The notes beneath the pieces were generated by a model. That model had not been told where the DNA came from. It saw only the letters and a program-made list of their open reading frames with translations, and searched no databases. A stretch of DNA of 64,000 bases from Jiella avicenniae (GTDB taxonomy: Bacteria > Pseudomonadota > Alphaproteobacteria > Rhizobiales > Rhizobiaceae), in assembly GCF_021390325.1 (NCBI RefSeq), contig NZ_JAJUWU010000011.1:1-64000 (forward strand), read 5' to 3'. A program made the position numbers and the translations under genes. Below are positions 42,809-60,066 of the stretch, in pieces; positions within the stretch are counted from its first letter, which is position 1; every line of letters starts with the position of its first letter.

Positions 42809-44086
42809 CTACTGGAACTTGTCGAGCATCCGGTAATAGAGGCCGACCACGGGCAGGAACCACGGCTTGCCGAAATGGCCGGGAACGGCGTTCCAGTCCA
42901 TGCCTTCCATCGGGTTGCGGTTTTGCTTGCCGGCCATCACCTCGCCCATGATCTCGCCGATATGGGTGGCAAGCTGCGCGCCGTGGCCGGAATAGCCCAT
43001 GGCGTAATGGACGCCGTCCGCCTCGCCGGCCCGGGGGAACCGGTCCTTGGTCATGCCGACGAGCCCGCCCCAGCAATAGTCGATGTCGATACCGGCGAGA
43101 TGCGGGAAGATCCCGGCGAGGCTTTCCGCCAGGATGCGGCCGGACTTTTCGTCGGACCTTGCATCGGACACAGCCGAAAACCGGGCGCGGCCGCCGAAGA
43201 TCAGCCGGTTGTCGGGCGAGAGGCGGAAATAGTTGCCGATGTTGAGCGAGGTGACGCAGGTCCGGTTGCCGGGCATGGTCGCCGCGACCTCGTCGTCGCT
43301 GAGCGGCCGGGTGGCGAGGACGAAGCTGCCGACCGGGATCACCCGGCGCCTGAAGTGGCCGAACGGTCCTTCGGTATAGGCGTTGGTGGCCAGGAAGACG
43401 CGGTTCGCGGTGAGGCTTCCCCGCGGCGTCGTCAGCCGCCAGCCGGCGCCCTCCTTCGCGCGCGCCGTCACCGGCGCATTCTCCATGATCGCCGCGCCGT
43501 GCCGCGTGGCGGCCTCGGCCATGCCGTCGACGAAGCGGCCCATGTGCATCATGGCGCTCTTCTTCGACAGCATCGCGCCGTGAAAGGCCCGTGAGCCGAT
43601 CTCGCCGCGCAGGTCCTCTTTCGACAGAAGCGCGGTGTCGGCGTCGACCTCCCGGTGGACCGCCTCGAAATTCCTGGCGATCGCCTCGAAATGTCCGGGC
43701 TTGGAGGCAAGCTTTAGCTTGCCGGCGCGCCGGAAACTGCAGTCGATCGCCTCTTCGGCGACGATCCGCTCGATCGTGTCCACGGCATCGTCGAAGGCGC
43801 GGTAGAGAGCCTTCGCCCGCGCCTCGCCGAGATGCTCCTTGGCGGCGAGATAGCCGTGGGCGAGCCCGTTGTTGAGGTGGCCGCCATTGCGCCCGGAGCC
43901 GCCGAAGCCGACCTGCCGGGCTTCCAGGAGAGCGACACGCGCACCGGCTTTCGCCAGCGTGCGCGCCGCCGACAGACCGGTGAAGCCGCCCCCGACGACG
44001 GCGACGTCGAACGTGCCCTCGACCGGTCCCTCGGCTGCGCCCGAAAAGCGCGGCGCGGTGTCGTGCCAATAGGATTTGAACTGCAT
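42809..44086 (-). CDS. FAD-dependent amine oxidoreductase, PuuB-like (DAO family)
   Basis: The 425-residue flavoenzyme has FDVAVVGGGFTGLSAARTLAKAGARVALLEA for FAD binding, then GFGGSGRNGGHLNNGLA, the motif shared with gamma-glutamylputrescine oxidase PuuB, and C-terminal GYSGHGAQLATHIGEIMGEVM. Such enzymes oxidise secondary or primary amines to aldehydes with release of hydrogen peroxide or reduced acceptor. It follows the HAD gene by 3 bases in one operon and converges on gabD, whose product could take the aldehyde onward. Confidence 0.9.
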   Translation of the reverse strand: MQFKSYWHDTAPRFSGAAEGPVEGTFDVAVVGGGFTGLSAARTLAKAGARVALLEARQVGFGGSGRNGGHLNNGLAHGYLAAKEHLGEARAKALYRAFDDAVDTIERIVAEEAIDCSFRRAGKLKLASKPGHFEAIARNFEAVHREVDADTALLSKEDLRGEIGSRAFHGAMLSKKSAMMHMGRFVDGMAEAATRHGAAIMENAPVTARAKEGAGWRLTTPRGSLTANRVFLATNAYTEGPFGHFRRRVIPVGSFVLATRPLSDDEVAATMPGNRTCVTSLNIGNYFRLSPDNRLIFGGRARFSAVSDARSDEKSGRILAESLAGIFPHLAGIDIDYCWGGLVGMTKDRFPRAGEADGVHYAMGYSGHGAQLATHIGEIMGEVMAGKQNRNPMEGMDWNAVPGHFGKPWFLPVVGLYYRMLDKFQ

Positions 44087-44089
44087 GGC

Positions 44090-44770
44090 CTAGAGGCTCA
44101 CCACCGCCGGAAGGCCCGAAACGTCGGGGATCTCCACGTAGCCGTAATAGGGATTGGCCGGCTCGTGGCCGCGATTGACCCAAACCTTGTTGGCGATGCC
44201 GAGATCGTGGGCCGACATCAGGTCGTAGCGGAAGGACGAGGAGCAGTGGAGAATGTCCTCGGGGCCGCAGCCGAGCTCATCCAGCATGTATTCGAAGGCC
44301 TGGAAGCGCGGCTTGTAGGCATTCGCCTGCTGGGCGGTGAAGACATGGGCGAAGGGCGCGCCGAGCTTTTCGACGTTCGACATGATCTGGGCGTCCATGG
44401 CGTTGGACAGGATGACGAGCGGGATCTCCTTCGCCACCTTCGCCAGCCCCTCCGGAACGTCGGGATGCGGACCCCATGTCGGCACCGCCTCGTAGAACTG
44501 CCGGGCCTCGGCCTCGACGAAGGCGACGCCGTTGCGCTTGCAGGTCCGTTCGACGGCGTTGACGACGACCTGGTCGTAGGGCTTCCAGTCGCCCATGATC
44601 TCGTCGAGCCGGTAGGCGGCGAAGTTCCGGATGAACCGTTCCAGGAGGTCGGGAGACAGGCGCGAACCGTAGATCTCCCGCGTCTTCTCGGCCATCTGGA
44701 AATGGGTCAGCGTCCCATAGCAGTCGAAGGTGATGAATTTCGGGCGGAACACGGGCGTCTTGCCTCTCAT
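44090..44770 (-). CDS. HAD superfamily protein, haloacid dehalogenase type II group
   Basis: The 226-residue product has the nucleophile Asp in ITFDCYGTLTHF (D16), the SNAMD motif, and the Lys in NAYKPRFQAFEYML. The segment corresponding to the dehalogenase active-site S-x-N-x-x-D is HCSSSFRYDL, which lacks the usual Asn, so a 2-haloacid substrate is doubtful; another small organic acid or a phosphate ester is possible. First gene of an operon with the PuuB-like oxidase and divergent from the M20 deacylase operon. Confidence 0.87.
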   Translation of the reverse strand: MRGKTPVFRPKFITFDCYGTLTHFQMAEKTREIYGSRLSPDLLERFIRNFAAYRLDEIMGDWKPYDQVVVNAVERTCKRNGVAFVEAEARQFYEAVPTWGPHPDVPEGLAKVAKEIPLVILSNAMDAQIMSNVEKLGAPFAHVFTAQQANAYKPRFQAFEYMLDELGCGPEDILHCSSSFRYDLMSAHDLGIANKVWVNRGHEPANPYYGYVEIPDVSGLPAVVSL

Positions 44771-44870: not shown

Positions 44871-44885
44871 AAGCAGATTGTTGCG
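44871..44885. promoter_or_regulatory. Possible Lrp-type operator (site D)
   Basis: AAGCAGATTGTTGCG matches 11 of 15 positions of site A (56290-56304), with the core GCAGATT-TT-CG kept and GCA / TGC symmetry. It lies in the 242-base gap between the divergent HAD-oxidase and M20-GNAT-aminotransferase operons. Confidence 0.4.
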
Positions 44886-45012
44886 AATGCGCGGGGAACG
44901 ACGGCAAGGCCTGCCGAGCGTTTCGCGCCAGTCTTGGTGCAATCCGTTGCGCGCCCGGCGCGGGTCGCAACGGCTTTGTGGCAGACGCCACGCCTTCAGC
45001 GAGACGGTCCCG

Positions 45013-46155
45013 ATGAATCCCCAGTCCATGTTGTCCAGCCTCGTCGCCTTCCGCTCCGTCGTCGGCACCCACAACGGCGCGTTGATCGACTACGTCCGGG
45101 ACTTCCTGGCGATGCACGGCGTCGCCTCCGTGGTGATCGGCGGGCCGGAGGGCGATCGCTTCAATCTCTTCGCCACGATCGGCCCGGCCGGGGTTCCGGG
45201 CTACATCCTGTCGGGCCACGTCGACGTCGTGCCCGCCAACGAACCGGCCTGGACCGGCAACCCGTTCCGGCTGCGCGAGGTGGAGGGGCGGCTGGTCGGA
45301 CGCGGCGCCGTCGACATGAAGGGCTTCGTCGCGGCGGTCCTCTCGGTCGTGCCGGACCTCGTGGCAATGGACCTCGCCCGCCCGATCCACATCGCGCTGT
45401 CCTATGACGAAGAGGCGGGCTGCCGCGGCGTTCCCCATCTCATCGAGAAGCTGCCGACCCTCTGCGCGCCACCGCTCGGCTGCATCGTCGGCGAGCCGTC
45501 GGGGCTGGTGCCGGTTCTGCGGCACAAGGGCAAGGCGGCGCTGAGGATCCTGGCCGAGGGCAGGTCCGGCCACTCGTCGCGGCCCGATCTCGGAACCAAC
45601 GCGATCCACGTGATCCTGCCGGCCCTCACCGCCATGGCGGAAGCGGCGGAAGCCCAGCGCCTCTCGGGGCCGCGCGATCCGCACTTCGCGCCGCCCTACT
45701 CCACGATCCAGATCGGCAGGATCACCGGCGGTGAGGCGCTGAACGTCATTCCGGAGCGCGCCGGCGCCGAGATCGAGGCGCGGGCGATCGCCGGCGTCGA
45801 TCCCCTGGCGCTGCTGGAGCCGGCGCTGAAGATCGTCGCGGCGAACGACTGTCTATCCGCCGAGATCATCGCCAGCTATCCGGGGCTGGCGCTGGGTGAG
45901 GATCATCCGCTGGCGGCGCTGGCGGGCGAACTGTCCGGCCATCCGCCGCTCGCCGCCGTCAGCTACGGGACCGAGGCGGGGCTGTTCCAGGCGGCGGGCA
46001 TTCCCTCCGTCGTCTGCGGGCCGGGCGACATCGCCCGCGCCCACAAGCCGGAGGAGTACATCACCGTCGCGGAACTGCAGGCCGCCAGCAAGATGGTCCT
46101 GCGCCTCGGCCGCAGGCTGTCGGGCGCGACCGCGCAAGGGGCCGCGGCGCAGTGA
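45013..46155 (+). CDS. M20-family amidohydrolase, acetylornithine deacetylase (ArgE) type
   Basis: The 380-residue zinc enzyme removes acyl groups from alpha-amino acids. Metal and catalytic residues are H69 and D71 in SGHVDVVP, D101 in GRGAVDMKGF, and the Glu pair at 133-134 in YDEEAGCRGV; YGTEAGLFQAAGIP and AHKPEEYI complete the site. It heads a rightward operon with the GNAT, aminotransferase and hydroxyacid dehydrogenase genes. This context points to catabolic deacylation of an N-acyl amino acid or diamine rather than arginine synthesis. The ribosome binding site is weak (GCGAGACGG). Confidence 0.9.
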   Translation: MNPQSMLSSLVAFRSVVGTHNGALIDYVRDFLAMHGVASVVIGGPEGDRFNLFATIGPAGVPGYILSGHVDVVPANEPAWTGNPFRLREVEGRLVGRGAVDMKGFVAAVLSVVPDLVAMDLARPIHIALSYDEEAGCRGVPHLIEKLPTLCAPPLGCIVGEPSGLVPVLRHKGKAALRILAEGRSGHSSRPDLGTNAIHVILPALTAMAEAAEAQRLSGPRDPHFAPPYSTIQIGRITGGEALNVIPERAGAEIEARAIAGVDPLALLEPALKIVAANDCLSAEIIASYPGLALGEDHPLAALAGELSGHPPLAAVSYGTEAGLFQAAGIPSVVCGPGDIARAHKPEEYITVAELQAASKMVLRLGRRLSGATAQGAAAQ

Positions 46156-46337
46156 GACGGAGTTCGGCGGACCCGTTCGGGGTTGCCGGACTTCATCTCA
46201 GCCCGGCCCACCCGACCGGCGCGCCGGCGCGGCGCCGCAATTTGCTGCGGCCATCGCCGCCGCCCGCGGCCGGATATTCCGTCGCCCGGCCGGCCGCCGA
46301 AAGCATCTTCCTTCCGGACGCTGCTACGACTGGACGA

Positions 46338-47195
46338 ATGACGACCATCCAGAACGCTTGCCCGATGCCCGGACTCCAGATCTTTCCGTTCACGGCCGAT
46401 CATCTCGAAGCCGCCGTCGCGCTCTCGCGCAGGGAAGGCTGGCCGCATCGCCCGCAGGACTGGGCGCTGATCGCCGAACTCTCGCACGGGATCGTCGCGA
46501 CCGAGGGCGGGCGCGTCGTCGGCACGGCCTTCTGCACGCCCTTCGGCGACGGCGTCGCGATGCTCGACATGATCATCGTCGACGAGACCATGCGTGGCCG
46601 CGGGCTCGGCAGGCGCCTCGTCGAGACGGTCATGCAGGCCGCCGGCGAGCGATCGTTGCGGCTCACCGCGACCAAGGCCGGCCTGCCGCTCTATGCCAAG
46701 CTCGGCTTCGTCGAGGCCGGACGGATCCTCCAGCACCAGGGCGAGGTCGCCGCCGTGCCCCCGCCGGACGGGGTCGAGGACGCCGGGCCAGCCGATCGCG
46801 AGGCGATCGTGGCGCTCGACCGGCAAGCCTTCGGCGCCGACCGCGGCGCGCTTTTCGGGCACCTTCTGGCCGAAGGCGAGGCGGTCGTCGTCCGCAACGA
46901 TGGTCGCGTCGCCGGCTTTGCCGTCCGTCGACCTTTCGGCCGTGGCGAGGTCGTCGGCCCGGTCGTCGCGCAGGACGAGGAGACGGCAAGGCGCCTGATC
47001 GCCGCCCATTTCGCCCGCCGCCAAGGCGCATTTCTGCGGGTCGACACGCCCGCCGAACACGGCCTCGGGCTCTGGCTCGCAGCGCAGGGCCTCGCCCCGG
47101 CCGGCGGCGGCGTGGCGATGACCCGCGGCGCGCCCCGTTCGACCGAACGATCCACCGCGCGGACCTACGCGCTCACCTCCCAGGCCCTCGGCTGA
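46338..47195 (+). CDS. GNAT acetyltransferase with two GNAT-like domains
   Basis: The 285-residue product has an N-terminal GNAT domain (about 10-140) with the acetyl-CoA loop MIIVDETMRGRGLGRRLVETVM, where RGRGLGRRL is the Q/RxxGxG/A motif, and YAKLGFVEAGR. A degenerate second domain (about 145-270) contains ALDRQAFGADRGALF and VVRNDGRVAGFAVRR. Tandem GNATs of this type occur in amine or amino-acid catabolic loci. It lies 182 bases after the M20 gene and just before the aminotransferase. The substrate is unknown. Confidence 0.85.
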   Translation: MTTIQNACPMPGLQIFPFTADHLEAAVALSRREGWPHRPQDWALIAELSHGIVATEGGRVVGTAFCTPFGDGVAMLDMIIVDETMRGRGLGRRLVETVMQAAGERSLRLTATKAGLPLYAKLGFVEAGRILQHQGEVAAVPPPDGVEDAGPADREAIVALDRQAFGADRGALFGHLLAEGEAVVVRNDGRVAGFAVRRPFGRGEVVGPVVAQDEETARRLIAAHFARRQGAFLRVDTPAEHGLGLWLAAQGLAPAGGGVAMTRGAPRSTERSTARTYALTSQALG

Positions 47196-47215
47196 CCACA
47201 TCTCGGAGAAACCCG

Positions 47216-48598
47216 ATGCTCTCCAACTCCCTCGTCGAACTCGACAGGCAGCACCTGATCCATCCGCTCGCCTCGCCGCGCGGGCACGAGCGCAGCGGGG
47301 TGCGCGTCCTCGCCTCCGCCAAGGGCGCGACGCTGACCGACGGCGAAGGCCACCGGCTGCTCGACGGTTTCGCCGGCCTGTGGTGCGTCAACGCCGGCTA
47401 CGGACACGAAAGCGTCGTCGAGGCGGCGGCCGAGCAGATGCGCCGGCTGCCCTATGCCACCGGCTATTTCGACATGGGCTCGGAACCGGCGATCCGGCTC
47501 GCGGCCGAACTTGCCGAGCGGGCGCCGGGCGATCTCGACCACGTCTATTTCACGCTCGGCGGGTCGGATGCGGTGGACAGCACGATCCGCTTCATCCGCT
47601 ACTACAACCACGCCCGCGGCACCCCGCAGAAGGACCAGTTCATCTCGCTCGCGCAAGGGTTCCACGGCTCCTCGACGGCCGGCGCCGGGCTGACCGCCCT
47701 GCCGGGATTCCACTTCGGCTTCGGCGTGCCCTTCGACTGGCAGCACAAGATCTCGTCCCACTACGTCTATCGCAATCCCGTCGGCCAGGATCCGGCGGCG
47801 ATCATCGCCGCCTCGGTGGCCGAGCTGAGGGCCAAGGTCGAGGAGCTCGGCGCCGAGCGCGTCGCGGCCTTCTATGCCGAGCCGATCCAGGGGTCGGGCG
47901 GTGTGCTGGTGCCGCCAGCGGGATGGATGAAGGCGATGGCCGAGGCCTGCCGGGAGATGGACATCCTGTTCGTCGCCGACGAGGTGATCACCGCCTTCGG
48001 GCGGACCGGACCGCTTTTCGCCTCAGAGGACGAGGGCATCGTTCCGGACTTCATCACCGTCGCGAAGGGGCTGACCTCCGGCTACGCGCCGCTCGGCGCC
48101 GTGCTGATGGCCGATCACGTCTACCAGGCCATCGCCGACGGCGCCGGCGAAGCGCTGATCGGCCATGGCTACACCTATTCCGGCCACCCGGTCAGCGCCG
48201 CGGTCGGCCTGGCGGTGCTGCGGCTGTACGAAGACGGCGGCCTCTTGGAAAACGGCCGCAAGGCCGGCGCGCGGCTGATGGCCGGGCTGCACGGTCTGTC
48301 CGACCATCCGCTGGTCGGCGACGTCCGGGGTCGCGGCATGCTGGCGGCGATCGAACTCGTCACCGACAAGGCGGCGAAGACGCCGCTGCCGGCCGCCGCC
48401 GAGGCCTCCCGGCGGATCTTCGACCGGGCCTATCGCGCCGGCCTGATCGTCCGCGCCTTCGCCAACGGCGCGATCGGGTTCGCGCCGCCTCTGTGCTGCA
48501 CGCCCGAGGAGATCGACGAGATGGTCGCGCGCACCCTCCGCGTCCTCGACGAGACGCTCGACGATCCGGACGTGCGCTCGGCGATGACGGGCGCCTGA
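47216..48598 (+). CDS. Class III omega-aminotransferase (aspartate aminotransferase family)
   Basis: The 460-residue PLP enzyme transfers a terminal amino group to pyruvate or a keto acid. Key elements: the start HLIHPLASPRGHERSGVRVL typical of putrescine/beta-alanine-pyruvate types, the cofactor Asp in VADEVITAFGRTG (D255), and the Schiff-base Lys K284 in VAKGLTSGYAPLGAV. The product of an omega-amine would be a semialdehyde, which fits the GabD enzyme nearby. CGGAGAA precedes the ATG. Confidence 0.92.
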   Translation: MLSNSLVELDRQHLIHPLASPRGHERSGVRVLASAKGATLTDGEGHRLLDGFAGLWCVNAGYGHESVVEAAAEQMRRLPYATGYFDMGSEPAIRLAAELAERAPGDLDHVYFTLGGSDAVDSTIRFIRYYNHARGTPQKDQFISLAQGFHGSSTAGAGLTALPGFHFGFGVPFDWQHKISSHYVYRNPVGQDPAAIIAASVAELRAKVEELGAERVAAFYAEPIQGSGGVLVPPAGWMKAMAEACREMDILFVADEVITAFGRTGPLFASEDEGIVPDFITVAKGLTSGYAPLGAVLMADHVYQAIADGAGEALIGHGYTYSGHPVSAAVGLAVLRLYEDGGLLENGRKAGARLMAGLHGLSDHPLVGDVRGRGMLAAIELVTDKAAKTPLPAAAEASRRIFDRAYRAGLIVRAFANGAIGFAPPLCCTPEEIDEMVARTLRVLDETLDDPDVRSAMTGA

Positions 48599-48603
48599 GC
48601 GCC

Positions 48604-49533
48604 GTGGCGCTGCTCTACCTCTCCGGCGCCGAGCGCGCCGCCGTCTGGCGGCCGATCTTCGAGCGCGAGTTGCCGGACGTGCCGTTCCTCGACGGCGAGG
48701 CGGCGGTCGCAGATCCCCGGGACGTCCGCTTCATCGCCGCCTGGACGCTGCCGGCGGGCATCGTCGAGCGCTACCCCGGGCTCGAGATGATCCTGTCGGT
48801 CGGCGCCGGCGTCGATCAGCTCGATTTCGCCGCCCTGCCGGAACAGGTGGCGGTGGCGCGGATGATCACCCCGTCGATCGGCGAGATGATGCGCGACTAC
48901 ACGCTGCTCGGCGTCCTGGCGATGCATCGCCAGCTGCCGCGCTACCTGGACCAGCAGCGGCAGAAAGTCTGGAAGGCCGGCCCGGTGGAACTGGCCCGCC
49001 GCCGGCGGGTCGGCGTCCTCGGGCTCGGACAGCTCGGCCGCGCGACGATCGATGCGCTGCTGCCGCTGGGGTTCCAACTGGCCGGCTGGTCCCGCACACC
49101 GCGGACGATCGCCGGGGTGGAGACGTTTGCGGGAACGGCCGGGCTGCGGCCGTTCCTTTCGCGCACCGACATCCTGGTCTGCCTGCTGCCGCTGACGCCC
49201 GAGACCGAGAACATCCTCGACGCCGATCTCTTCGACGCGCTGCCCGAAGGCGCATGCCTGGTTCACGCCGGTCGCGGCCGGCATCTGGACCATGACGCGC
49301 TGCTCGCGGCCCTGGATCGCGGCCGGCTTGCCGACGCCTTCCTCGACGTGACGGACCCCGAGCCGCTGCCGGCCGAGCACCGCCTCTGGACCCATCCGCA
49401 GGTGATCCTGACGCCGCATGTGGCCACCGTGACCGACTTCGAGGAAGGGGCGGTCTGCGCCGTCGAGTGCATCCGCGCGCATCTGGCCGGTCGCCCCGTG
49501 CCGGGCCGCGTCGACAGAGCTAAGGGTTACTGA
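48604..49533 (+). CDS. D-2-hydroxyacid dehydrogenase (glyoxylate/hydroxypyruvate reductase A type)
   Basis: The 309-residue product (GTG start 6 bases after the aminotransferase stop) has ILSVGAGVDQLD, the NAD-binding VGVLGLGQLGRATIDAL, and CLLPLTPETENILDADLF. The catalytic Arg would be in HAGRGRHLDHDAL, the Glu in DVTDPEPLPAEHRLW and the His in LTPHVATVT. GhrA-type enzymes reduce glyoxylate or hydroxypyruvate. Here it could reduce a keto acid from the preceding transamination. Last gene of the operon. Confidence 0.9.
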   Translation: MALLYLSGAERAAVWRPIFERELPDVPFLDGEAAVADPRDVRFIAAWTLPAGIVERYPGLEMILSVGAGVDQLDFAALPEQVAVARMITPSIGEMMRDYTLLGVLAMHRQLPRYLDQQRQKVWKAGPVELARRRRVGVLGLGQLGRATIDALLPLGFQLAGWSRTPRTIAGVETFAGTAGLRPFLSRTDILVCLLPLTPETENILDADLFDALPEGACLVHAGRGRHLDHDALLAALDRGRLADAFLDVTDPEPLPAEHRLWTHPQVILTPHVATVTDFEEGAVCAVECIRAHLAGRPVPGRVDRAKGY

Positions 49534-49807
49534 TTAGGCACTGCGGAAAATATCGCCACGGGCGCGATTTCAAAACAAAATGCCGCGGCGACGGGGCGTT
49601 TCGGGTTTTCTTGGATCGCAGTCCTGCGACAGTCTGGTGGAGGACGGCGACCGCAGGCGGCAGAAAGCCCGACAGGGCCGTGGACTGCACGTCGAAGACC
49701 CCGGGGTCCGCAACATCCCTCGGGACAAATCAAGGTCTGCCATCACGGAACAATATGCCGTTCGACTTTCGCGGCGCCGAGGTCGTACGTGCAGAGGAGC
49801 GCATCGC
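49534..49807. other. Intergenic region with candidate Lrp-type site and promoter
   Basis: No gene is supported in these 274 bases. A strong dyad (site C) is at 49746-49760, and a weaker look-alike, CGGAAAATATCGCCA, at 49544-49558. The stretch is more AT-rich than its neighbours. It precedes the HAD-ABC transporter operon. Confidence 0.5.
49746..49760 (-). promoter_or_regulatory. Candidate Lrp-type operator (site C)
   Basis: Read on the minus strand the site is CGGCATATTGTTCCG, identical at 13 of 15 positions to site A upstream of the Lrp gene (56290-56304), and it keeps the CGG...CCG symmetry. It lies 48 bases before the HAD gene that leads the ABC importer operon. Confidence 0.6.
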
Positions 49808-50515
49808 GTGGACAAAGCACTGACCCATTTCAAGGTGTTGACGTTCGACGTCGTCGGGACCCTGATCGACTTCGAGGCGGGACTGACCGGCGGTCTGGAG
49901 GCCATCGCGGCGGACCATGGCCTCACCGTCGACGGCGAAGCGGCGCTGGCGATCTACGGGCAATGCCGCCGCGACGCGGAGGCCGGCAAGTTCCCCGACG
50001 ACGTCGCCCGCTGCTACGGCGTCATCGCCGCGAGGACCGGTCTGCCGCGAGGGCCGGAGCAGGGTGCGCGGATGGTCGAGGCGGTCGCGGCCTCTCCGGC
50101 CTTTGCCGACAGCGTCGAGGCGCTGTCGCGGCTGTCCCGAAGGTTCAAGCTCGTCGCCATGACCAATGCCCAGCGCTGGGCCTTCGAACGCTATGCGGAG
50201 GTGCTCGGACGGCCGTTCTACAAGGGCTTCACCACCGACGACACGGGCACCGAGAAGCCCGATCCGGCCTTCTTCGACTTCGTCCTCGCCGATCTGGCGA
50301 AAGACGGTTTCGGCAAGGCCGACATCCTGCATGTCGCCCAGAGCCAATATCACGACATCGGCATCTCGCGGCAGCTCGGCCTGACCAATTGCTGGATCGA
50401 GCGGCGGCACGGGCGCCCCGGCAGCGGCGGCACGATCGCCCCGGAGAGCTTCACCCGGCCGGACTTCCATTTCACGTCGCTCGCCGCACTGGCGGATGCC
50501 GTCGAAGCGCAGTGA
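49808..50515 (+). CDS. HAD superfamily protein, haloacid dehalogenase type II group (HVAQS subfamily)
   Basis: The 235-residue product has the nucleophile in LTFDVVGTLIDF (D14), MTNAQRW, and GTEKPDPAFFDFVL with the Lys. Instead of the dehalogenase S-x-N-x-x-D motif it has ILHVAQSQYHDIG, a recurrent variant in this group, so it is probably not a 2-haloacid dehalogenase. The GTG start follows GAGGAG at 7 bases. It precedes the ABC transporter genes by 63 bases and probably shares their transcript. It is a second, distant paralogue of the HAD at 44090. Confidence 0.85.
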   Translation: MDKALTHFKVLTFDVVGTLIDFEAGLTGGLEAIAADHGLTVDGEAALAIYGQCRRDAEAGKFPDDVARCYGVIAARTGLPRGPEQGARMVEAVAASPAFADSVEALSRLSRRFKLVAMTNAQRWAFERYAEVLGRPFYKGFTTDDTGTEKPDPAFFDFVLADLAKDGFGKADILHVAQSQYHDIGISRQLGLTNCWIERRHGRPGSGGTIAPESFTRPDFHFTSLAALADAVEAQ

Positions 50516-50578
50516 GATCTTCTCCAATCCCGCACCAAGACGGGCTCGCCACCTGCTGACACGAAAAGGGGTCGACGC

Positions 50579-52192
50579 ATGAGCCATGACACTGTGACGA
50601 ACTGGACCGGTCGCGACGATGCGATGGTCGAGCATGCCATCCGCCGCGGAGCCACCCGCCGCGACCTCCTGCGCCTGTTGATGGCGAGCGGCATCGGCCT
50701 TGCCGCCGGCGGCACGATCATCGGCCGCGCCACACGGGCCTTTGCCGAGACGCCGAAATCCGGCGGCTCGATCACGGCCGCCGGCTGGTCGGCCTCCACG
50801 GCCGATACGCTCGATCCCGCCAAGGGCTCGCTGTCGACCGACTACGTCCGCGCCTGCGCCTTCTACAACCGCCTGACGTTCCTCGAAGAGGGCGGCGACG
50901 TGCGCATGGAGCTCGCCGACAAGCTCGAGACGCAGGACGCCAAGACCTGGACGCTGACGCTGCGCCCCGACGTGACCTTCCACGACGGCAAGACGCTCAC
51001 CACCGACGACGTCATCTATTCCCTGCAGCGCCACAAGGACCCGGCCGTCGGCTCCAAGGTCAACGCCATGGCCAAGCAGATGGAGAGCTTCAAGAAGGTC
51101 GACGACAAGGTGATGGAGATCGTGCTGAGCGCTCCCAACGCCGATCTGCCGATCATCCTGGCGCTGCACCACTTCATGATCATCGCCGACGGCACGACCG
51201 ATTTTTCGACCGCCAACGGAACCGGCGCCTTCAAGTGCGAGGTCTTCGAGCCCGGCGTGCGCTCCGTCGGCGTGAAGAACGAGAACTACTGGAAGGACCA
51301 GCTTCCCTATCTCGACAGTTTCGAATTCATCGCGATTTCCGACGAGCCGGCCCGCATCAACGCGCTGCTTTCAGGTGATATCGCGCTGGCGGCGGCGATC
51401 AATCCGCGGTCGATGCGACGTCTGGACGGCGTGGACGGCGTCAGCCTCTCGCAGACGACGTCCGGCAACTATACCGATCTCAACGTCCGACTCGACATGG
51501 ATCCGGGCGACAAAGCCGGCTTCGTCGAGGGTATGAAGTATCTGATCAACCGCGAGGTGATCAAACGCTCGATTTTGCGCGATCTGGCGGTGGTGGCCAA
51601 CGACCAGCCGATTTCGCCCAACGACAAATATTACAACAAAGAGCTCCCGGCGAAGGAATACGACCCGGACAAGGCGAAAAGTCTGTTCGAAAAGGCTGGC
51701 GTGCTCGGCCAGACCATCCCGATCATCACCTCGGATGCGCCGAACTCGGCTGTCGACATGGCCACCGTCGTGCAGCAGGCCGGCCAGGAGATCGGCATGC
51801 CGTTCGACGTTCAGCGCGTTCCTTCCGATGGCTACTGGTCGAATTACTGGCTGAAAGCGCCCATCCATTTCGGCAACATCAATCCGCGGCCGACGCCCGA
51901 TATCCTGTTCTCGCTGCTCTACGCCTCGGACGCGCCGTGGAACGAGAGCCACTACAAGTCCGAGAAGTTCGACAAGATGCTGGTCGAGGCGCGCGGCTCG
52001 CTCGACGAAGCCAAGCGCAAGGCGATCTACGACGAGATGCAGGTGATGGTCTCCGAGGAGGCCGGCACGATCATTCCGGTGTGGATCTCCAACGTCGACG
52101 CCCTTTCCTCCAAATTGAAGGGTATGCGCGCGAACCCGCTCGGCGGCATGATGGGCTATGCCTTCGCCGAGTACGTCTGGCTCGACGACTGA
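50579..52192 (+). CDS. Peptide/opine-type ABC transporter substrate-binding protein (family 5)
   Basis: The 537-residue product carries a Tat-like signal (TRRDLLRLLMASGIGLAAGG, residues 21-40, cleaved near RAFAETP) and a family 5 binding-protein fold with DTLDPAKGSLSTDYVRACAFYNRLTF, LRPDVTFHDGKTLTTDDVIYSLQRHKDP and GTGAFKCEVFEPGVR. Family 5 proteins bind di- and oligopeptides, opines, nickel or other amines. It is the first transporter gene, followed by a hairpin and two permeases. AAGGGG precedes the ATG. Confidence 0.92.
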   Translation: MSHDTVTNWTGRDDAMVEHAIRRGATRRDLLRLLMASGIGLAAGGTIIGRATRAFAETPKSGGSITAAGWSASTADTLDPAKGSLSTDYVRACAFYNRLTFLEEGGDVRMELADKLETQDAKTWTLTLRPDVTFHDGKTLTTDDVIYSLQRHKDPAVGSKVNAMAKQMESFKKVDDKVMEIVLSAPNADLPIILALHHFMIIADGTTDFSTANGTGAFKCEVFEPGVRSVGVKNENYWKDQLPYLDSFEFIAISDEPARINALLSGDIALAAAINPRSMRRLDGVDGVSLSQTTSGNYTDLNVRLDMDPGDKAGFVEGMKYLINREVIKRSILRDLAVVANDQPISPNDKYYNKELPAKEYDPDKAKSLFEKAGVLGQTIPIITSDAPNSAVDMATVVQQAGQEIGMPFDVQRVPSDGYWSNYWLKAPIHFGNINPRPTPDILFSLLYASDAPWNESHYKSEKFDKMLVEARGSLDEAKRKAIYDEMQVMVSEEAGTIIPVWISNVDALSSKLKGMRANPLGGMMGYAFAEYVWLDD

Positions 52193-52205
52193 TCCTCCGA
52201 CCTTT

Positions 52206-52230
52206 CGGCCGGGCGCTCTTCGCCCGGCCG
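52206..52230 (+). terminator. Perfect hairpin between binding-protein and permease genes
   Basis: CGGCCGGGCG and CGCCCGGCCG form a perfect 10-bp stem around CTCTT, 14 bases after the binding-protein stop, followed by GTTCATTCATT. Such hairpins commonly stabilise the binding-protein message or partly terminate transcription, giving more binding protein than permease. Confidence 0.7.
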
Positions 52231-52267
52231 TTCATTCATTCGCGGATCACGGGGAGCCGTCGCCATC

Positions 52268-53224
52268 ATGAATGCCCTCATCGCGCGACTTGTCGCCAAG
52301 CGCCTGGGGATCATGCTGATCTCTCTCCTGGTCGTCGCCTTCGCGGTGTTCTTCGCCACCGAGCTTCTTCCCGGCGACGTCGCCCAGATCCTGCTCGGCC
52401 AGGCCGCGACGCCGGAGGCCGTAGCCGGCCTCCGCAAGTCGATGCATCTCGACCAGCCGGCCTTCCTGCGGTTCTTGTACTGGCTCGGCGGGCTCCTGAC
52501 CGGCGATCTCGGGCGCTCCTATGCCAACAATCGCGAGGTCGCGGATCTCATCGCGGGACGGCTGGCGAATTCGCTCGAACTCGCCTTCGTCACGACGCTG
52601 TTCTCGGTGCCCATCGCCCTCACCCTCGGCATCACCGCGGCGATGTTCCGGGGGTCGACCTACGACCGGCTGGTCCTGGTCTTCACCGTTTCGGTGATCT
52701 CGATCCCCGAATTCATGGTGGCGACGCTCGCCGTCATGATCTTTGCGGTCTACCTGAAATGGTTGCCGGCCCTGTCGGTCGCCAGTGATGTCGAAGGACT
52801 CGGCGAGCTCCTGCGGATCTACGCGATGCCGGTCATCACACTGTCCTTCGTCGTCTCGGCGCAGATGATCCGGATGACGCGTGCGGCGGTGATCGACACC
52901 CTCGACACCGCCTATGTCGAGATGGCTCTGCTCAAGGGCGCATCGCGCCGGCGGATCGTGCTGAGACATGCGCTGCCGAACGCGCTCGGCCCGATCGTCA
53001 ACGCCATGGCCCTGTCGCTCTCCTACCTGCTGGGCGGCGTCATCATCGTCGAGACGATCTTCAACTATCCGGGCGTGGCGAAACTGATGGTGGACGCGGT
53101 CTCCACCCGCGATCTTCCGCTCATCCAGTCCTGTGCGATGATCTTCTGCGTCAGCTATCTCCTTCTGATCCTGATCGCCGACCTCGTCGCGATCATGGCC
53201 AACCCGCGGCTGCGGAACCAATGA
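52268..53224 (+). CDS. ABC transporter permease (DppB type)
   Basis: The 318-residue inner-membrane protein has six hydrophobic segments, the N-terminal KRLGIMLISLLVVAFAVFFATELLPGDVAQILLG typical of DppB/OppB, and the EAA loop ALLKGASRRRIVLRHALPNALGPIVNAMA. It forms half of the importer channel. Its stop overlaps the next start by 4 bases (ATGA), indicating coupled translation with the second permease. Confidence 0.94.
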   Translation: MNALIARLVAKRLGIMLISLLVVAFAVFFATELLPGDVAQILLGQAATPEAVAGLRKSMHLDQPAFLRFLYWLGGLLTGDLGRSYANNREVADLIAGRLANSLELAFVTTLFSVPIALTLGITAAMFRGSTYDRLVLVFTVSVISIPEFMVATLAVMIFAVYLKWLPALSVASDVEGLGELLRIYAMPVITLSFVVSAQMIRMTRAAVIDTLDTAYVEMALLKGASRRRIVLRHALPNALGPIVNAMALSLSYLLGGVIIVETIFNYPGVAKLMVDAVSTRDLPLIQSCAMIFCVSYLLLILIADLVAIMANPRLRNQ

Positions 53225-54072
53225 CGATGACGACGACAGCTTCCGCCCGCAAAGGTCGCTTCGGCTGGCACATGAACGCCGTCGGCATCATCGGCGCCGC
53301 GATCATCCTGTTCTGGATGGTGGTGGCGATCGCTGCGCCCTGGATCAGCCCCTATCCGGTCGGCCAAATCGTCGATTTCGACTATTACGGGCCGATGTCG
53401 GCGCAGTTCTGGCTCGGCACCGACTATCTCGGCCGCGACATGCTGTCCCGCGTCTTGATGGGCGCGCGCTACACCGTCGGCATCTCACTTGCCGCCGTCG
53501 CCATCGCCTGTTTCGTCGGGGTGACGCTCGGGATGATCGCGGCGGTCGTCGGAGGGTGGTTCGACGCGATCCTGTCACGCTTCCTCGACGCGCTGAACTC
53601 GCTTCCCTCCCTGATGTTCGGCCTCGTCGTGGTCGCCGCGGTCGGCAGCTCGATGACAGTGCTCGTCCTGACGATCGCCGTGCTCTACGCGCCCGGCAGT
53701 TACCGTTTCGCCCGGGCGCTCGCCGTCAACGTCAATGCCATGGACTTCGTCACGGTGGCGCGGGCGCGCGGCGAAGGCACCATCTACACGATCCGCGAGG
53801 AGATCTTCCCGAACATCATCGGCCCGGTTCTGGCCGATTTCGGCCTGCGCTTCGTCTTCATCGTGCTGCTGCTCTCCGGTCTGTCCTTTCTCGGACTCGG
53901 CGTTCAGCCGCCGAACGCGGATTGGGGCGCGCTGGTGCGCGAGAACATCGGCGGGCTGTCATTCGGGGCTCCGGCGGTGATCATGCCCTCGATCGCCATC
54001 GCCAGCCTGACGATCTCGGTCAACATGCTGATCGACAACCTTCCCCGGCGGATCCGCGACAGGAGCGAATGA
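53221..54072 (+). CDS. ABC transporter permease (DppC type)
   Basis: The 283-residue inner-membrane protein starts with a short cytoplasmic tail and the WHMNAVGIIGAAIILFWMVVAIAAPWISPY segment, followed by GTDYLGRDMLSRVLMGARYTVGISL, the DppC signature, and the EAA loop ARARGEGTIYTIREEIFPNIIGPVLADFG. It pairs with the DppB-type permease. The next gene starts within its last codons. Confidence 0.94.
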   Translation: MTMTTTASARKGRFGWHMNAVGIIGAAIILFWMVVAIAAPWISPYPVGQIVDFDYYGPMSAQFWLGTDYLGRDMLSRVLMGARYTVGISLAAVAIACFVGVTLGMIAAVVGGWFDAILSRFLDALNSLPSLMFGLVVVAAVGSSMTVLVLTIAVLYAPGSYRFARALAVNVNAMDFVTVARARGEGTIYTIREEIFPNIIGPVLADFGLRFVFIVLLLSGLSFLGLGVQPPNADWGALVRENIGGLSFGAPAVIMPSIAIASLTISVNMLIDNLPRRIRDRSE

Positions 54073-55733
54073 TGGGCAACGTCGTCGAAATCCGCGATCT
54101 GCACGTCAGCGCCAGGACCGATTCCGGCCGCACGGTCGAGATCATCAAGGGCGTCGACCTGAACGTCGGCGCGGGCGAGATGGTCGCCCTCATCGGCGAA
54201 AGCGGCTCGGGCAAGACGACGATCGCCCTGACGCTACTCGGCCACACGCGCACGGGCTGTTCGATCCGAAAGGGTTCGGTCCGTGTCGCCGGCCGGGACG
54301 TCGTGGCGATGTCGGGGGCCGAGCGGCGGCGGCTGCGCGGCCGGCAGGTCGCCTATGTGCCGCAATCGGCAGCGGCGGCCTTCAATCCCTCGCAGACCAT
54401 CATGGACCAGGTCGTCGAGGTCGCGAAGATCCACCAGCTGATGCCGATGGAAGAAGCCCGGCAGAAGGCGATCGGGCTGTTCCGCGCCCTGGCGCTGCCC
54501 GATCCCGAGACGATCGGCCTGCGCTATCCGCATCAGGTGTCGGGCGGGCAGCTGCAGCGTCTTGCCGCCGCCATGGCGCTGATCGCCGATCCCGAGGTGA
54601 TGGTGTTCGACGAACCCACCACGGCGCTCGACGTCACCACCCAGATCGAGGTGCTGCGGGCCTTCAAGTCGGTGATGCGCGAACGCGGCATGGCGGGCGT
54701 CTACGTCTCGCACGATCTCGCCGTCGTTGCCCAGATCGCCGACCGCATCGTCGTCCTGAAGGGCGGCGAGGTGCAGGAGGAGGGCGCCACCGAGCAGATC
54801 GTCACGGCGCCGAAGCACGGCTACACCAGGGCGCTGATCGACGCCTTCCATCCGAGGCCGCACGAGGCCGCAGCGACGGAGCGGCCCGGTCCGGAGACGC
54901 CCGTCCTGGAAGTGACGAACCTCACCGCCGGCTACGGCGCGATCGGCCGGGACGGCCGGCCGGAATATCTCGCGCTGAAGGACGTGAGCTTCCGCCTCGA
55001 GCGGGGCAGGAGCCTCGGGGTGATCGGCGAATCCGGCAGCGGCAAGTCGACCCTGGCGCGGGCGATCGCGGGCCTGCTGCCGCCGGCGATCGGCCAGATC
55101 AGGATGGACGGGGTGGAACTCGGGCGACGCACGAAAGACCGCTCGAAGGAGGATCTGCGCAAGCTGCAGATCGTCTTCCAGCTGGCCGACACGGCGCTCA
55201 ATCCCAACCGCTCGGTGGGGGCGATCCTGTCACGACCGCTGACCTTCTATCACGGCACGCGGGGCCGCGAATGCGAGGCGGAGGTCGACCGGCTCCTCGA
55301 CATGGTCCGGCTGCCCAAGGCCTTGAAGCACCGGCTGCCGCCGGAACTGTCCGGCGGGCAGAAGCAGCGGGTCAACTTCGCCCGGGCCCTCGCCGCCAGG
55401 CCGGAGCTGATCCTGTGCGACGAGATCACCTCGGCGCTCGACACCGTGGTGGCCGCTGCGATCCTCGATCTCCTCGACGAACTGCAGCGCGAACTCGGCC
55501 TCACCTACGTGTTCGTCAGCCACGACCTGTCGACGGTGGAGGCGGTCTGCGACCGGGTGCTGGTGATGTATCAGGGCGAGAAGGTCGAGGAGATGCCGAC
55601 CTCGCGCATGAAGTCGGGCGCCGAGCATCCCTATTCGAAGCTCCTGATCGCCTCGGTTCCGCAGCTCGACACGGGGTGGCTGGACGGGCTGGACCGGGAG
55701 CGCGCGTCCCCCGGCGCCGAGGCCGGGCGCTGA
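54069..55733 (+). CDS. Dual ATP-binding protein of the peptide-type ABC transporter
   Basis: The 554-residue protein fuses two ATPases (DppD- and DppF-like) that power the importer. The first has Walker A GESGSGKT, signature VSGGQLQRL and Walker B VMVFDEPTTALD. The second, from about residue 280, has GESGSGKSTLA, LSGGQKQRVNFARAL and LILCDEITSALD. Two ATG codons lie in tandem; the second (54072) has the better spacing to AGGAG. A short conserved HPYSKLL segment near the end is the oligopeptide-transporter-specific extension. Confidence 0.94.
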   Translation: MMGNVVEIRDLHVSARTDSGRTVEIIKGVDLNVGAGEMVALIGESGSGKTTIALTLLGHTRTGCSIRKGSVRVAGRDVVAMSGAERRRLRGRQVAYVPQSAAAAFNPSQTIMDQVVEVAKIHQLMPMEEARQKAIGLFRALALPDPETIGLRYPHQVSGGQLQRLAAAMALIADPEVMVFDEPTTALDVTTQIEVLRAFKSVMRERGMAGVYVSHDLAVVAQIADRIVVLKGGEVQEEGATEQIVTAPKHGYTRALIDAFHPRPHEAAATERPGPETPVLEVTNLTAGYGAIGRDGRPEYLALKDVSFRLERGRSLGVIGESGSGKSTLARAIAGLLPPAIGQIRMDGVELGRRTKDRSKEDLRKLQIVFQLADTALNPNRSVGAILSRPLTFYHGTRGRECEAEVDRLLDMVRLPKALKHRLPPELSGGQKQRVNFARALAARPELILCDEITSALDTVVAAAILDLLDELQRELGLTYVFVSHDLSTVEAVCDRVLVMYQGEKVEEMPTSRMKSGAEHPYSKLLIASVPQLDTGWLDGLDRERASPGAEAGR

Positions 55734-55757
55734 CCGGGACGGCCCTTGCGACCGTCG

Positions 55758-56267
55758 TCAGGCCGAAAGCTTCTCGCCGAACAGGTTGTTCAGCGGCAGG
55801 TGGTTCTTGATGAAGGGCGACTTGATGACCACGAAGCTGAAATACTTGTCGATGCCGACGTCCTGATCGATCAGGTTCTCGATGATCGTCTGGTAGTGGA
55901 CGATCCCGGCGGTGATGAACTTCAGGAGATAATCGTAGCCGCCCGAGACCAGATGGCATTCGACGCAGGCGTCGATCTTCCTGACGGCGGCCTGGAACCG
56001 GTCGAAATCCACATGGCGGTGGTTCTTCAGCGTCACTTCGGTGAAGACCGTCAGGATCTCGCCGAGTTTGGCGATGTCGATCTGGGCGGAATAGCCGGTG
56101 ATGTAGCCCGCCGCCTGCAGCCGCTTCATCCGCGTCAGGCAGGGGCTCGGAGACAGGTTCACCAGTTCGGCGAGTTCGACGTTGGTGATGCGCCCGTTCT
56201 TCTGGAGCTCGCACAGGATCTTCACGTCGATCATGTCGAGCTTCATCCGCGTACCGGTGGTGAGCAT
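55758..56267 (-). CDS. Lrp/AsnC-family regulator of the catabolic cluster
   Basis: The 169-residue product has the Lrp helix-turn-helix (DMIDVKILCELQKNGRITNVELAELVNLSPSPCLTRMKRLQAAGYI) and a RAM domain with FTEVTLKNHRHVDFDRFQAAV and CVECHLVSGGYDYLLKFI. ATG 56265-56267 is preferred over the internal Met because GCGGAGAC precedes it. It diverges from a DAO-type oxidase, and the gap contains two copies of a 15-bp dyad. Similar dyads lie before other operons of the region, so this is the likely local regulator, probably responding to an amino acid made or used by these genes. Confidence 0.92.
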   Translation of the reverse strand: MLTTGTRMKLDMIDVKILCELQKNGRITNVELAELVNLSPSPCLTRMKRLQAAGYITGYSAQIDIAKLGEILTVFTEVTLKNHRHVDFDRFQAAVRKIDACVECHLVSGGYDYLLKFITAGIVHYQTIIENLIDQDVGIDKYFSFVVIKSPFIKNHLPLNNLFGEKLSA

Positions 56268-56289
56268 GTCGTCTCCGCTGCGAGGCTTA

Positions 56290-56304
56290 CGGCAGATTAT
56301 TCCG
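56290..56304. promoter_or_regulatory. Candidate Lrp-type operator (site A)
   Basis: CGGCAGATTATTCCG is a degenerate dyad with an AT-rich centre, the usual form of Lrp sites, 23 bases before the Lrp gene start. It is near-identical to site B 99 bases away and to site C at 49746-49760. Confidence 0.6.
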
Positions 56305-56388
56305 CCAGCTTGATCCGACTCCGTCCCACTGGCAAGCCGCCATCGGAGGAGACACCCGAAAATGAACTGCCGCTCCCTGCGCCGAACG

Positions 56389-56403
56389 CGGCAGATCATG
56401 CCG
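56389..56403. promoter_or_regulatory. Candidate Lrp-type operator (site B)
   Basis: CGGCAGATCATGCCG matches site A at 13 of 15 positions and has perfect CGGCA / TGCCG arms. It lies 73 bases before the DAO-type oxidase start. Two sites about 99 bases apart, center to center, suit the cooperative, wrapping binding known for Lrp octamers. Confidence 0.6.
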
Positions 56404-56475: not shown

Positions 56476-57801
56476 ATGCCCGCCCCCTTGGTCACCATCG
56501 CGTCCTCCGGGACTTTGCCCGCGGCAGCCGACGTCGTCGTCGTCGGTGGCGGCATCGTCGGGGTCTGTGCGGCGTATTTCCTGGCGCGGGGCGGCCTGAA
56601 AGTGGCGCTTCTCGAAAAGGGCCGGATCGGCGCCGAGCAGTCGAGCCGGAACTGGGGCTGGTGCCGGCAGCAGAACCGCGATGGCCGCGAACTGCCGATG
56701 GCGACGCAGAGCCTCGCGCTGTGGGAGGAGATCCAGTCCGAACTCGGCCGGGATCTCGGCTTCCGGCGCTGCGGCCTGCTCTATCTCTCCGACGACGAGG
56801 CGGAGATCGCCGGCTGGGCGAAATGGCGCGATTTCGCGGCGGGCGAGGGCGTCGTGACCCACATGCTGGGCGCCGCCGAGGCGGGCGAACGCGGCGCGGC
56901 CACCGGCAAGCCCTGGAAGGGCGGCGTCTTCTCGCCGAGCGACGGCATCGCCGATCCCTCCCGGGCGGCACCGACGATCGCCGGGGGCGTGATCGCCCAT
57001 GGCGGCACGGTCCATCAGTTCTGCGCGGCGCGCGGGCTCGAGACGGAAGCCGGCAGGGTCTCCGCGGTCGTAACCGAAAACGGCACGATCCGAACCCCCC
57101 GGGTCGTGCTCGCCGGCGGCGCCTGGGCGTCGTCCTTCTGCCGGCAGCTCGGCATCGTCTTTCCGCAGTCCTCGGTGCGCTCGTCGATCCTGTCGCTCAT
57201 GCCCGGCGCCAGGACCATTCCCGACGCGCTGCATACGGCAGAGGTGTCGGTGACCCGGCGTGGCGACGGCGGCTGCACGCTGGCCGTTTCCGGCCTGGCG
57301 AGCGTCGACCCGACGTTTCAGCAGCTTCGCTTCGCCCGCAGCTTCCTGCCGATGTTCGCCAAGCGCTGGCGGGTGCTCGCGCCGGGCGATCTCTCGGCGC
57401 TCAAGGCGGGGCACGAGACGCTGCGGCGCTGGGCGCTCGACCGGCCGACGCCGATGGAGAGGATGCGCGCGCTCGATCCGCGGCCTTCCCGAAAAGCGAT
57501 CGAGCTGATCCTCGAACGGGCACGCCGGCTGATTCCCGAGCTGACGTCGATCCCGGTTCAGGCGGCCTGGGCGGGCTATATCGACTCGACGCCGGACGGC
57601 GTGCCGGTCATCGATCCGGCGGCGGGACCGGAGGGCTTTCTGCTCGCGGCCGGCTTTTCCGGCCACGGCTTCGGGATCGGCCCGGGGGCCGGGCGGCTCA
57701 TCGCCGACCTCGTCGCCGGCGATCGGCCGACGCTGCAGCATCGGCACTATGCGCTGTCGCGCTTCGGCCGCGGCGCGTGGGGAGAGGTCTCCGACTTCTG
57801 A
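56476..57801 (+). CDS. FAD-dependent oxidoreductase, D-amino-acid dehydrogenase-like (DAO family)
   Basis: The 441-residue flavoenzyme has ADVVVVGGGIVGVCAAYFLARGGLKVALLEKG for FAD, then RIGAEQSSRNWGWCRQQNRDGRELPM, which is characteristic of a subgroup near D-amino-acid dehydrogenase and N-methyl amino acid oxidases, and the C-terminal GFSGHGFGIGPGAGRLIADLV. It diverges from the Lrp gene and is probably its main target. It would deaminate a D- or N-alkylated amino acid to a keto acid. GGAGTGAGAC precedes the ATG. Confidence 0.9.
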   Translation: MPAPLVTIASSGTLPAAADVVVVGGGIVGVCAAYFLARGGLKVALLEKGRIGAEQSSRNWGWCRQQNRDGRELPMATQSLALWEEIQSELGRDLGFRRCGLLYLSDDEAEIAGWAKWRDFAAGEGVVTHMLGAAEAGERGAATGKPWKGGVFSPSDGIADPSRAAPTIAGGVIAHGGTVHQFCAARGLETEAGRVSAVVTENGTIRTPRVVLAGGAWASSFCRQLGIVFPQSSVRSSILSLMPGARTIPDALHTAEVSVTRRGDGGCTLAVSGLASVDPTFQQLRFARSFLPMFAKRWRVLAPGDLSALKAGHETLRRWALDRPTPMERMRALDPRPSRKAIELILERARRLIPELTSIPVQAAWAGYIDSTPDGVPVIDPAAGPEGFLLAAGFSGHGFGIGPGAGRLIADLVAGDRPTLQHRHYALSRFGRGAWGEVSDF

Positions 57802-58961: not shown

Positions 58962-59041
58962 GTGGTTCCTTTCGCTTGGCGTCGAGGCGAAGAGTTTCGG
59001 CCTGGGCGGGCCGGCTGTCCAATCGCACTTGCGGTCATGGT

Positions 59042-59058
59042 CATAAGAGCGCCCTATG
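59042..59058. promoter_or_regulatory. Candidate LysR box (T-N11-A)
   Basis: CATAAGAGCGCCCTATG has arms CATA-G / C-TATG and fits the T-N11-A rule. It lies 21 bases before the LysR start, within the gap to the divergent oxidase, as expected for an autoregulatory site. It also overlaps the alternative ATG at 59056, arguing against that start. Confidence 0.45.
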
Positions 59059-59079
59059 GGCAGGAAGGGAAGGGCTAGG

Positions 59080-59976: not shown

Positions 59977-60066
59977 GCCGGGCTTATTCACCTCGCGCGC
60001 ATCCGACTTAGACGCCGGGGTGAGGCCGGCGGCATGCTGGGCGCACGAAACGAAGAGGCGGTGCCC

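Follow-up and report, generated by a model that had tools for sequence, protein, structure and literature searches.

The window analysed here, a stretch of 64,000 nucleotides of Jiella avicenniae DNA, carries a gene for an Lrp/AsnC-family regulator (lrp, 55758..56246, minus strand, 162 aa, assigned with Pfam). A longer open reading frame starting at 56399 was replaced by the start at 56246 (MKLD...) through homology. The protein has an N-terminal AsnC-type winged HTH (HTH_24, 70.0 bits with a cut-off of 21.9; HTH_AsnC-type, 56.4 with a cut-off of 27) and a C-terminal ligand-binding RAM/AsnC domain (AsnC_trans_reg, 59.3 bits, cut-off 25), and it matches E. coli Lrp (2gqq) with an E value of 8.7e-31. 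Its score as an E. coli Lrp equivalog (NF008370) was 133.8 bits, under the cut-off of 233, so the protein is a member of the family and not Lrp itself. The gene is divergent from that of an FAD-dependent amino-acid/amine oxidase (56476..57801, plus strand; Pfam DAO, 246.7 bits).

The importer operon is encoded on the plus strand. Its first gene is HAD1 (49808..50515, GTG start), followed by a peptide/nickel-type ABC substrate-binding protein (SBP, 50579..52192) and by two ABC permeases and a fused ATPase (52268..55733, from open reading frames and synteny in relatives). HAD2 (44090..44770; TIGR01428, 193.4 bits, above the cut-off of 125.4) and the DAO-type FAD oxidase of its operon (42809..44086) are on the minus strand. 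A deacylase (45013), a GNAT (46338), a class III aminotransferase (47216) and a 2-hydroxyacid dehydrogenase (48604) occupy 45013..49533 on the plus strand. In a comparison that covered solved structures, L-azetidine-2-carboxylate hydrolase (AC-hydrolase) was the best match of both HAD1 (3smv/8ywo/9v14, E 1.7e-40, about 88 of 227 residues identical) and HAD2 (E 1.4e-23, about 71 of 205 identical).

Similar 15-bp boxes lie between these genes. Site A (CGGCAGATTATTCCG, 56290..56304, plus strand) is proximal to lrp, 43 bp upstream of its MKLD start, and site B (CGGCAGATCATGCCG, 56389..56403, plus strand) is proximal to the oxidase, 72 bp upstream of its ATG. Site C (CGGCATATTGTTCCG, 49746..49760, minus strand) is located 47 bp upstream of HAD1. 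Site D (AAGCAGATTGTTGCG, 44871..44885, plus strand) is a degenerate box that precedes HAD2 by 100 bp, with the HAD2 operon behind it. The first-pass annotation had described these four as intergenic, with B and C each differing from A at 2 positions; all four positions proved exact, the differences were confirmed, and the intergenic location holds with gene starts set by homology. Site E (49571..49585, plus strand), a second box upstream of HAD1, had been overlooked.

A matrix was trained on lrp-oxidase spacers only, taken from 19 relatives outside the own clade and including one non-site (L035 proximal, score -3.6). The box obtained from the relatives was C(A/G)G(C/A)A-N5-T(G/T)C(T/C)G (16.4 bits); A, B and C agree with it, carrying G/C at positions 2 and 14. 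With this own-clade-free matrix, A (17.6), C (17.0), B (14.9) and E (13.3) ranked 1, 2, 4 and 5 in the window, and Markov sequence gave 0.1 matches per 64 kb at a score of at least 14. Site D, which is without C1 and C13 of the box, scored 6.0 (rank 31), a background level. Rank 3 in the window was at 17032, inside a chemotaxis-receptor-like ORF.

Exact matches to CGGCAKATNRTKCCG in the own genome (5.17 Mb) were A, B and C only. At 1 mismatch there were 62 further places versus 21 for a reversed control, a count that is partly circular because the pattern was derived from A, B and C themselves. Among 48 other scored places in this genome, a set that excluded one place without a locus (C49:8032), 11 reached at least the score of B, and 8 of the 11 lie within ORFs (Fisher p 0.055 versus the intergenic A, B and C, with small numbers). 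Coding DNA contained 64 strong box-like 15-mers in 1.13 Mb. The aminotransferase gene accounted for 48 of them, coinciding with codons for conserved residues such as QHKI, and the idea that every strong matrix match is a regulatory site was therefore dropped.

The orthologous intergenic regions of relatives were compared. A box was called at a matrix score of at least 11, and spacers that agreed in their first 40 letters entered the count a single time; some named loci (e.g. L238 and L244) belong to genomes that the training set also includes. Boxes were found in 74 of 84 lrp-oxidase spacers (shuffled mean 0.76). Outside the training set, all 55 HAD2-GNAT spacers had a box (shuffled mean 0.32), and so did 60 of the 70 spacers that precede HAD1 or SBP, comprising 38 of 44 amt-HAD1 (0.32), 13 of 15 dhDH-HAD1 (0.10) and 9 of 11 amt-SBP spacers (0.12). 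In contrast, control spacers had a box in 0 of 76 (SBP-perm1), 1 of 62 (HAD1-SBP) and 1 of 46 cases (ATP-lrp); mean lengths were 225-286 bp for promoter spacers versus 25-99 bp for most controls, a difference for which the per-spacer shuffles allow. The local Lrp regulon proposed in the first-pass annotation thus passes the comparative tests, the boxes being conserved and concentrated in three promoter spacers and not in controls of the same locus. They occur across Rhizobiales, Rhodobacterales, Azospirillum and others.

Both A-type and B-type boxes were upstream of 22 of 30 lrp orthologues and both were absent from 7; in the 7 genomes with a boxless lrp, the SBP orthologue was missing in 5 and present in 2. 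In G107 and G014, boxes still precede the operons though lrp and the ABC operon are on separate contigs. The 15-mer of site E is identical in G027, and E is aligned and kept in 4 of 4 own-clade sequences. At the corresponding position, 5 of the relatives' 55 HAD2-GNAT spacers have the exact 15-mer of D and 30 have its AAGCAGA, which also occurs in 3 of 5 HAD2-deacylase spacers. Given the 5 and the 30 of 55, the view of D as an artefact of low score was dropped. The score by itself would reject D as a regulon site, and only its conservation retains it. The regulon had also been said to link about 15 genes. The number is nearer 13, because no box was found at the SSADH and tartrate-dehydrogenase genes in the window, nor in 13 puuB-SSADH and 7 dhDH-tartDH spacers of relatives, and these two were dropped as members.

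The boxes are mostly paired, about 99-114 bp apart, and at least 2 were found in 58 of 84 lrp-oxidase spacers. The spacing was 96-100 bp in 7 and 108-114 bp in 42 of the 53 spacers with two boxes; in same-genus genomes with lrp it was 98-99 bp in 6 of 6. The distance from the last box to the oxidase start in the relatives' spacers had a median of 71 bp (quartiles 70-73). Intermediate weak boxes lay 31-32 bp from the oxidase-proximal box in 21 of 30, the commonest offset. In the window, two elements with a 31-bp offset are kept in the own-clade alignment: a weak half-site 31 bp from B (56358..56372, plus strand, score 5.3), and, tentatively, a CGG-N9-CCG dyad with a GC-rich centre 31 bp from D (44902..44916, plus strand), whose score is only -0.1.

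These comparisons suggest that A, B, C, E and the degenerate D are very probably operators of the Lrp/AsnC protein that the gene at 55758-56246 encodes, which would bind paired boxes and co-switch three control regions. The boxes could also be real Lrp-type operators read mainly by another Lrp-family protein, either a global Lrp or the paralogue on C21, with the local lrp as just one target. The box does fit the general E. coli Lrp consensus, but by the ORF test no more than 3 of the 11 high-scoring places elsewhere in the genome can be intergenic, a small number that does not suit a global regulon. The own genome has more Lrp-like proteins (8 first-look candidates, 2 at E 1e-30), and the one on C21, 45% identical, could bind similar DNA; however, no box of at least 11.5 was present in the spacers adjoining its gene. 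G029 retains the HAD1 boxes while lrp is missing beside the oxidase, with no close orthologue found in this 1890-contig assembly, whereas lrp co-occurs with the ABC operon elsewhere, an orthologue being present in 25 of 26 genomes having an SBP orthologue. We consider such a reader improbable.

Conservation of the boxes as promoter elements, or as sites of a non-Lrp regulator reading CAG-N9-CTG-like dyads, is far less credible: promoters too lie 40-75 bp from start codons, but the dyad symmetry, Lrp consensus, pairing and 31-bp satellites suit Lrp, and the boxes are always in spacers of the lrp-linked gene set. Pairwise likeness within the window was dropped as proof, since 15 intergenic 15-mer pairs with 2 mismatches are not significant alone when 61 shuffles average 4.9 and reach 20. 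This overlap and 37 pattern matches at 2 mismatches would fit a chance resemblance among GC-rich 15-mers, the region being 69% GC. That explanation is the least probable of all. Dozens of genomes keep A, B, C and E at fixed places and control spacers lack such boxes, which refutes it for these four sites; for D it is refuted by the 5 identical 15-mers and 30 AAGCAGA matches.

If the local regulator binds the boxes, dimers of Lrp, most likely assembled into an octamer, would occupy them at the lrp-oxidase region (A and B), upstream of HAD1-ABC (E and C) and in the HAD2-deacylase region (D). The DNA would be wrapped or bridged across about 100-180 bp, which could lead to lrp autoregulation. With regard to ligand and sign of regulation, we infer that a pathway intermediate or substrate would jointly switch the oxidase, importer and catabolic operons. 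For an Lrp-type regulator of unassigned function, this predicts a defined and conserved set of targets and supplies an operator matrix in explicit form, by which ligand and pathway become open to direct testing. With their constant pair distance and their satellites at 31 bp, the boxes offer a compact natural model for the use of DNA geometry by an Lrp octamer. No published description of this regulon was recognised in a literature search limited to open-licence papers, which is weak evidence of absence.

The nearness of both HADs to AC-hydrolase hints at the pathway substrate. A tentative and rather doubtful reading is that the regulon is dedicated to uptake and use of azetidine-2-carboxylate or of a larger plant compound containing it, for which nicotianamine is a candidate by structure. 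The peptide/metallophore-type ABC importer would bring the compound in, the FAD oxidases would cut C-N bonds, and HAD1 and HAD2 would open the azetidine ring to give 2-hydroxy-4-aminobutyrate. GNAT and deacylase might buffer toxicity through acetylation, while the class III aminotransferase, SSADH and the tartrate/D-malate-type dehydrogenase would feed into central metabolism. The signal sensed by the Lrp protein would be the compound itself or the hydroxy-GABA intermediate. An ectoine-type cluster was considered and set aside because the peptide-type importer is unsuited to it. If true, the azetidine reading would account for how plant-associated bacteria cope with a toxic proline analogue from plants.

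Three known systems can be compared. Assimilation of L-azetidine-2-carboxylate, as described in PMC8016842, involves the Pseudomonas AC-hydrolase and Aspergillus AzhA and NgnA. It shares with the present locus a HAD hydrolase, an acetyltransferase and a GABA-type transaminase, and the solved AC-hydrolase is by sequence the best match of both HADs; the ABC importer, FAD oxidases, deacylase and Lrp control are extra here. For E. coli Lrp, PMC6640053 gives the consensus CAG-N9(A+T-rich)-CTG. The 55758 protein shares its family and the 15-bp CxG-N9-CxG box architecture, and by its sequence the Jiella box is a GC-rich C(A/G)G-N9-C(C/T)G form of this already known site. However, own-genome boxes often have G/C at the outer A/T, and the target set is local here and global there. 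BarR of Sulfolobales, according to PMC10201364, is a beta-alanine-responsive Lrp-type regulator whose gene is divergent from a catabolic gene, with several 15-bp semipalindromes, some of them 27-29 bp or three turns apart, and an octamer that wraps the intergenic DNA. The divergent arrangement and the several 15-bp boxes are common to both. In contrast, lrp here diverges from an FAD oxidase gene, the paired boxes stand 99 bp from each other within the own genus, and there are boxes at two more operons.

All four 15-mers proposed by the first-pass annotation as sites of a local Lrp regulon were recovered exactly: A (56290) and B (56389) between the Lrp/AsnC-family regulator gene lrp (55758-56246) and the oxidase gene, C (minus strand, 49746) upstream of HAD1, the first gene of the ABC importer operon, and D (44871) between HAD2 and the deacylase gene. 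All are intergenic as claimed, because the gene starts of lrp (56246), oxidase (56476), HAD1 (49808), HAD2 (44770) and deacylase (45013) were fixed by homology. From the window by itself, A-D could not be told apart from chance by the number of similar 15-mers: 15 pairs differed at two positions, and 61 shuffles averaged 4.9 such pairs, with up to 20.

An independent matrix was built from relatives. Among 199 family genomes, 119 had an lrp match at E 1e-30 or better, and the best lrp upstream locus was surveyed in each of 30 genomes. Relative to the MKLD start, 22 carry a pair of Lrp-like boxes near -40 to -65 and -146 to -167, 1 carries the distal box alone and 7 carry neither. Of these loci, 19 from outside our own clade served to train a palindromic matrix of 16.4 bits. 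In the 64-kb window it ranked A first (17.6), C second (17.0), B fourth (14.9) and an additional site E, at 49571 upstream of HAD1, fifth (13.3); the third match (15.1) lies inside a chemotaxis-receptor-like coding sequence, and D ranked 31st (6.0). Markov sequence gave 0.1 matches of at least 14 per 64 kb.

Neighbouring genes were then located by tblastn in 20 + 16 + 80 fetched loci and the intervening spacers scored, with a box threshold of 11 or more. Boxes were present in 74 of 84 lrp-oxidase spacers (shuffled mean 0.76), all 55 HAD2-GNAT (acetyltransferase) spacers (0.32), 38 of 44 aminotransferase-HAD1 spacers (0.32), 13/15 dhDH-HAD1 spacers (0.10) and 9/11 spacers between the aminotransferase and the importer substrate-binding protein (SBP) (0.12). 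The HAD2 and HAD1 spacers were outside the matrix training and therefore provide independent confirmation. Control spacers, several of them short, gave 0/76 (SBP-perm1), 1/62 (HAD1-SBP), 1/46 (ATPase-lrp), 0/65 (aminotransferase-GNAT), 0/44 (HAD2-puuB), 0/20 (oxid2-lysR), 0/19 (hyuA-lysR), 0/13 (puuB-SSADH) and 0/11 (argE-GNAT). The oxidase was divergent from lrp in 65 of 80 named loci; within 330 bases upstream of lrp, 59 of these 65 had one or more boxes and 43 had two or more. The idea of a local regulon stands, with boxes in the promoter spacers of relatives and near-absent from control spacers. Its size was reduced from the claimed 15 or so genes to about 13. Beyond the oxidase, 57849-62109 encodes another FAD oxidase, a LysR regulator and a HyuA-like protein, whose spacers carry no box.

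Coding DNA held 64 matches of at least 14 in 1,126,473 bases, and the aminotransferase gene accounted for 48. These strong 15-mers in the aminotransferase genes of relatives (e.g. L062 6002-6140, L071 7640-7654) overlap codons of conserved residues; our own aminotransferase gene has no match of 8 or more.

Box spacing was also compared. The two boxes lay 108-114 bp apart in 42 of 53 two-box lrp-oxidase spacers and 96-100 bp in 7; in our genus, where 6/10 genomes bear lrp, the distance was 98-99 bp in all six. The oxidase-proximal box sat a median of 71 bp from the oxidase start (quartiles 70-73), and 21 of 30 weak intermediate boxes were 31-32 bp from it, a position occupied in the window by a half-site at 56358 (5.3). 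Upstream of HAD1, boxes were separated by 121-142 bp in 30 two-box aminotransferase-HAD1 spacers, 127-190 bp in 9 dhDH-HAD1 spacers and 175 bp between E and C.

As a regulatory site, D scored at background level but was rescued by conservation. Most relatives have an AAGCAGA-type element at the HAD2-proximal position; among the 55 HAD2-GNAT spacers, AAGCAGA was exact at the best-fitting position in 30, the whole 15-mer was identical to D in 5, and the strongest box lay 104-107 bp beyond the element in 33. Our clade, where a deacylase gene is inserted between HAD2 and GNAT, retains D (AAGCAGA in 3/3 relatives: G027, G020 and G122, the last a same-genus genome bearing lrp), and no stronger partner box was found there. 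The clade also conserves a GC-rich dyad 31 bp from D, at 44902, but its score is -0.1.

Pattern scans of our own genome (5.17 Mb draft), limited to sequences fitting the pattern, gave 52 places: A, B, C and 49 others, 48 of which were scored. B's score was reached by 11 of the 48, 8 within ORFs and 3 not by a GC-position test. The intergenic share (3/3 for A-C) differed from the other places in the expected direction in a small sample (Fisher p 0.055). Two matrix matches on contig C11 (112717 and 113692; 15.3 and 20.0) sit within a single 511-aa ORF that weakly resembles ABC ATPases. The pairs C45:2118/C49:170458 and C44:19554/C49:78044 share the same 15-mer and ORF coordinates in 3-kb loci, which suggests duplicated regions. 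An Lrp paralogue (C21:16749-17171, 45% identical) lies beside puuB-type oxidase, aminotransferase and SSADH paralogues; their spacers have no box of at least 11.5. This may be a sister system that uses a different operator.

SBP orthologues with at least 63% identity occurred in 26/199 family genomes, 25 of which also had the lrp orthologue. Upstream boxes were kept where the ABC operon and lrp are on separate contigs (G107, 18.6; G014, 14.5), and the oxidase box was present nonetheless where lrp and oxidase are not adjacent and divergent (G031, 17.0; G064, 16.1). In G029, lrp is missing between oxidase and ATPase, with no close orthologue found in the 1890-contig assembly, and the HAD1 boxes are kept despite this, which counts against exclusive control by the local lrp.

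The nearest solved structure to both HAD1 (E 1.7e-40) and HAD2 (E 1.4e-23) is L-azetidine-2-carboxylate hydrolase, with L-2-haloacid dehalogenases far behind. The nucleophile aspartate, which the deposited variant 8yvw has as N, is kept in HAD2 and, as aligned to 3smv, in HAD1. The aminotransferase belongs to the GABA/omega class, SSADH and tartrate dehydrogenase are above family cut-offs, and GNAT has two acetyltransferase domains. L-azetidine-2-carboxylate is a toxic plant amino acid that, in Pseudomonas and Aspergillus, is opened by a HAD hydrolase, is used by a GABA-like route and is also acetylated (PMC8016842). We hypothesize that the regulon serves an L-azetidine-2-carboxylate-type pathway; SSADH and tartrate dehydrogenase, both used by this hypothesis, have no box of their own.

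The lrp product has both an AsnC-type HTH and a ligand-binding domain, and the HTH aligns closely to E. coli Lrp. By analogy with BarR, the precedent described below, it would autoregulate its own gene and jointly control the oxidase, importer and catabolic operons, with a regulation sign and ligand that we infer. The boxes fit the E. coli Lrp site CAG-N9(A+T-rich)-CTG, as given in PMC6640053. The best precedent that we found is BarR. According to PMC10201364, its octamer wraps divergent intergenic DNA that carries 15-bp boxes, and BarR acts as a repressor of its own gene and as an activator of an aminotransferase.
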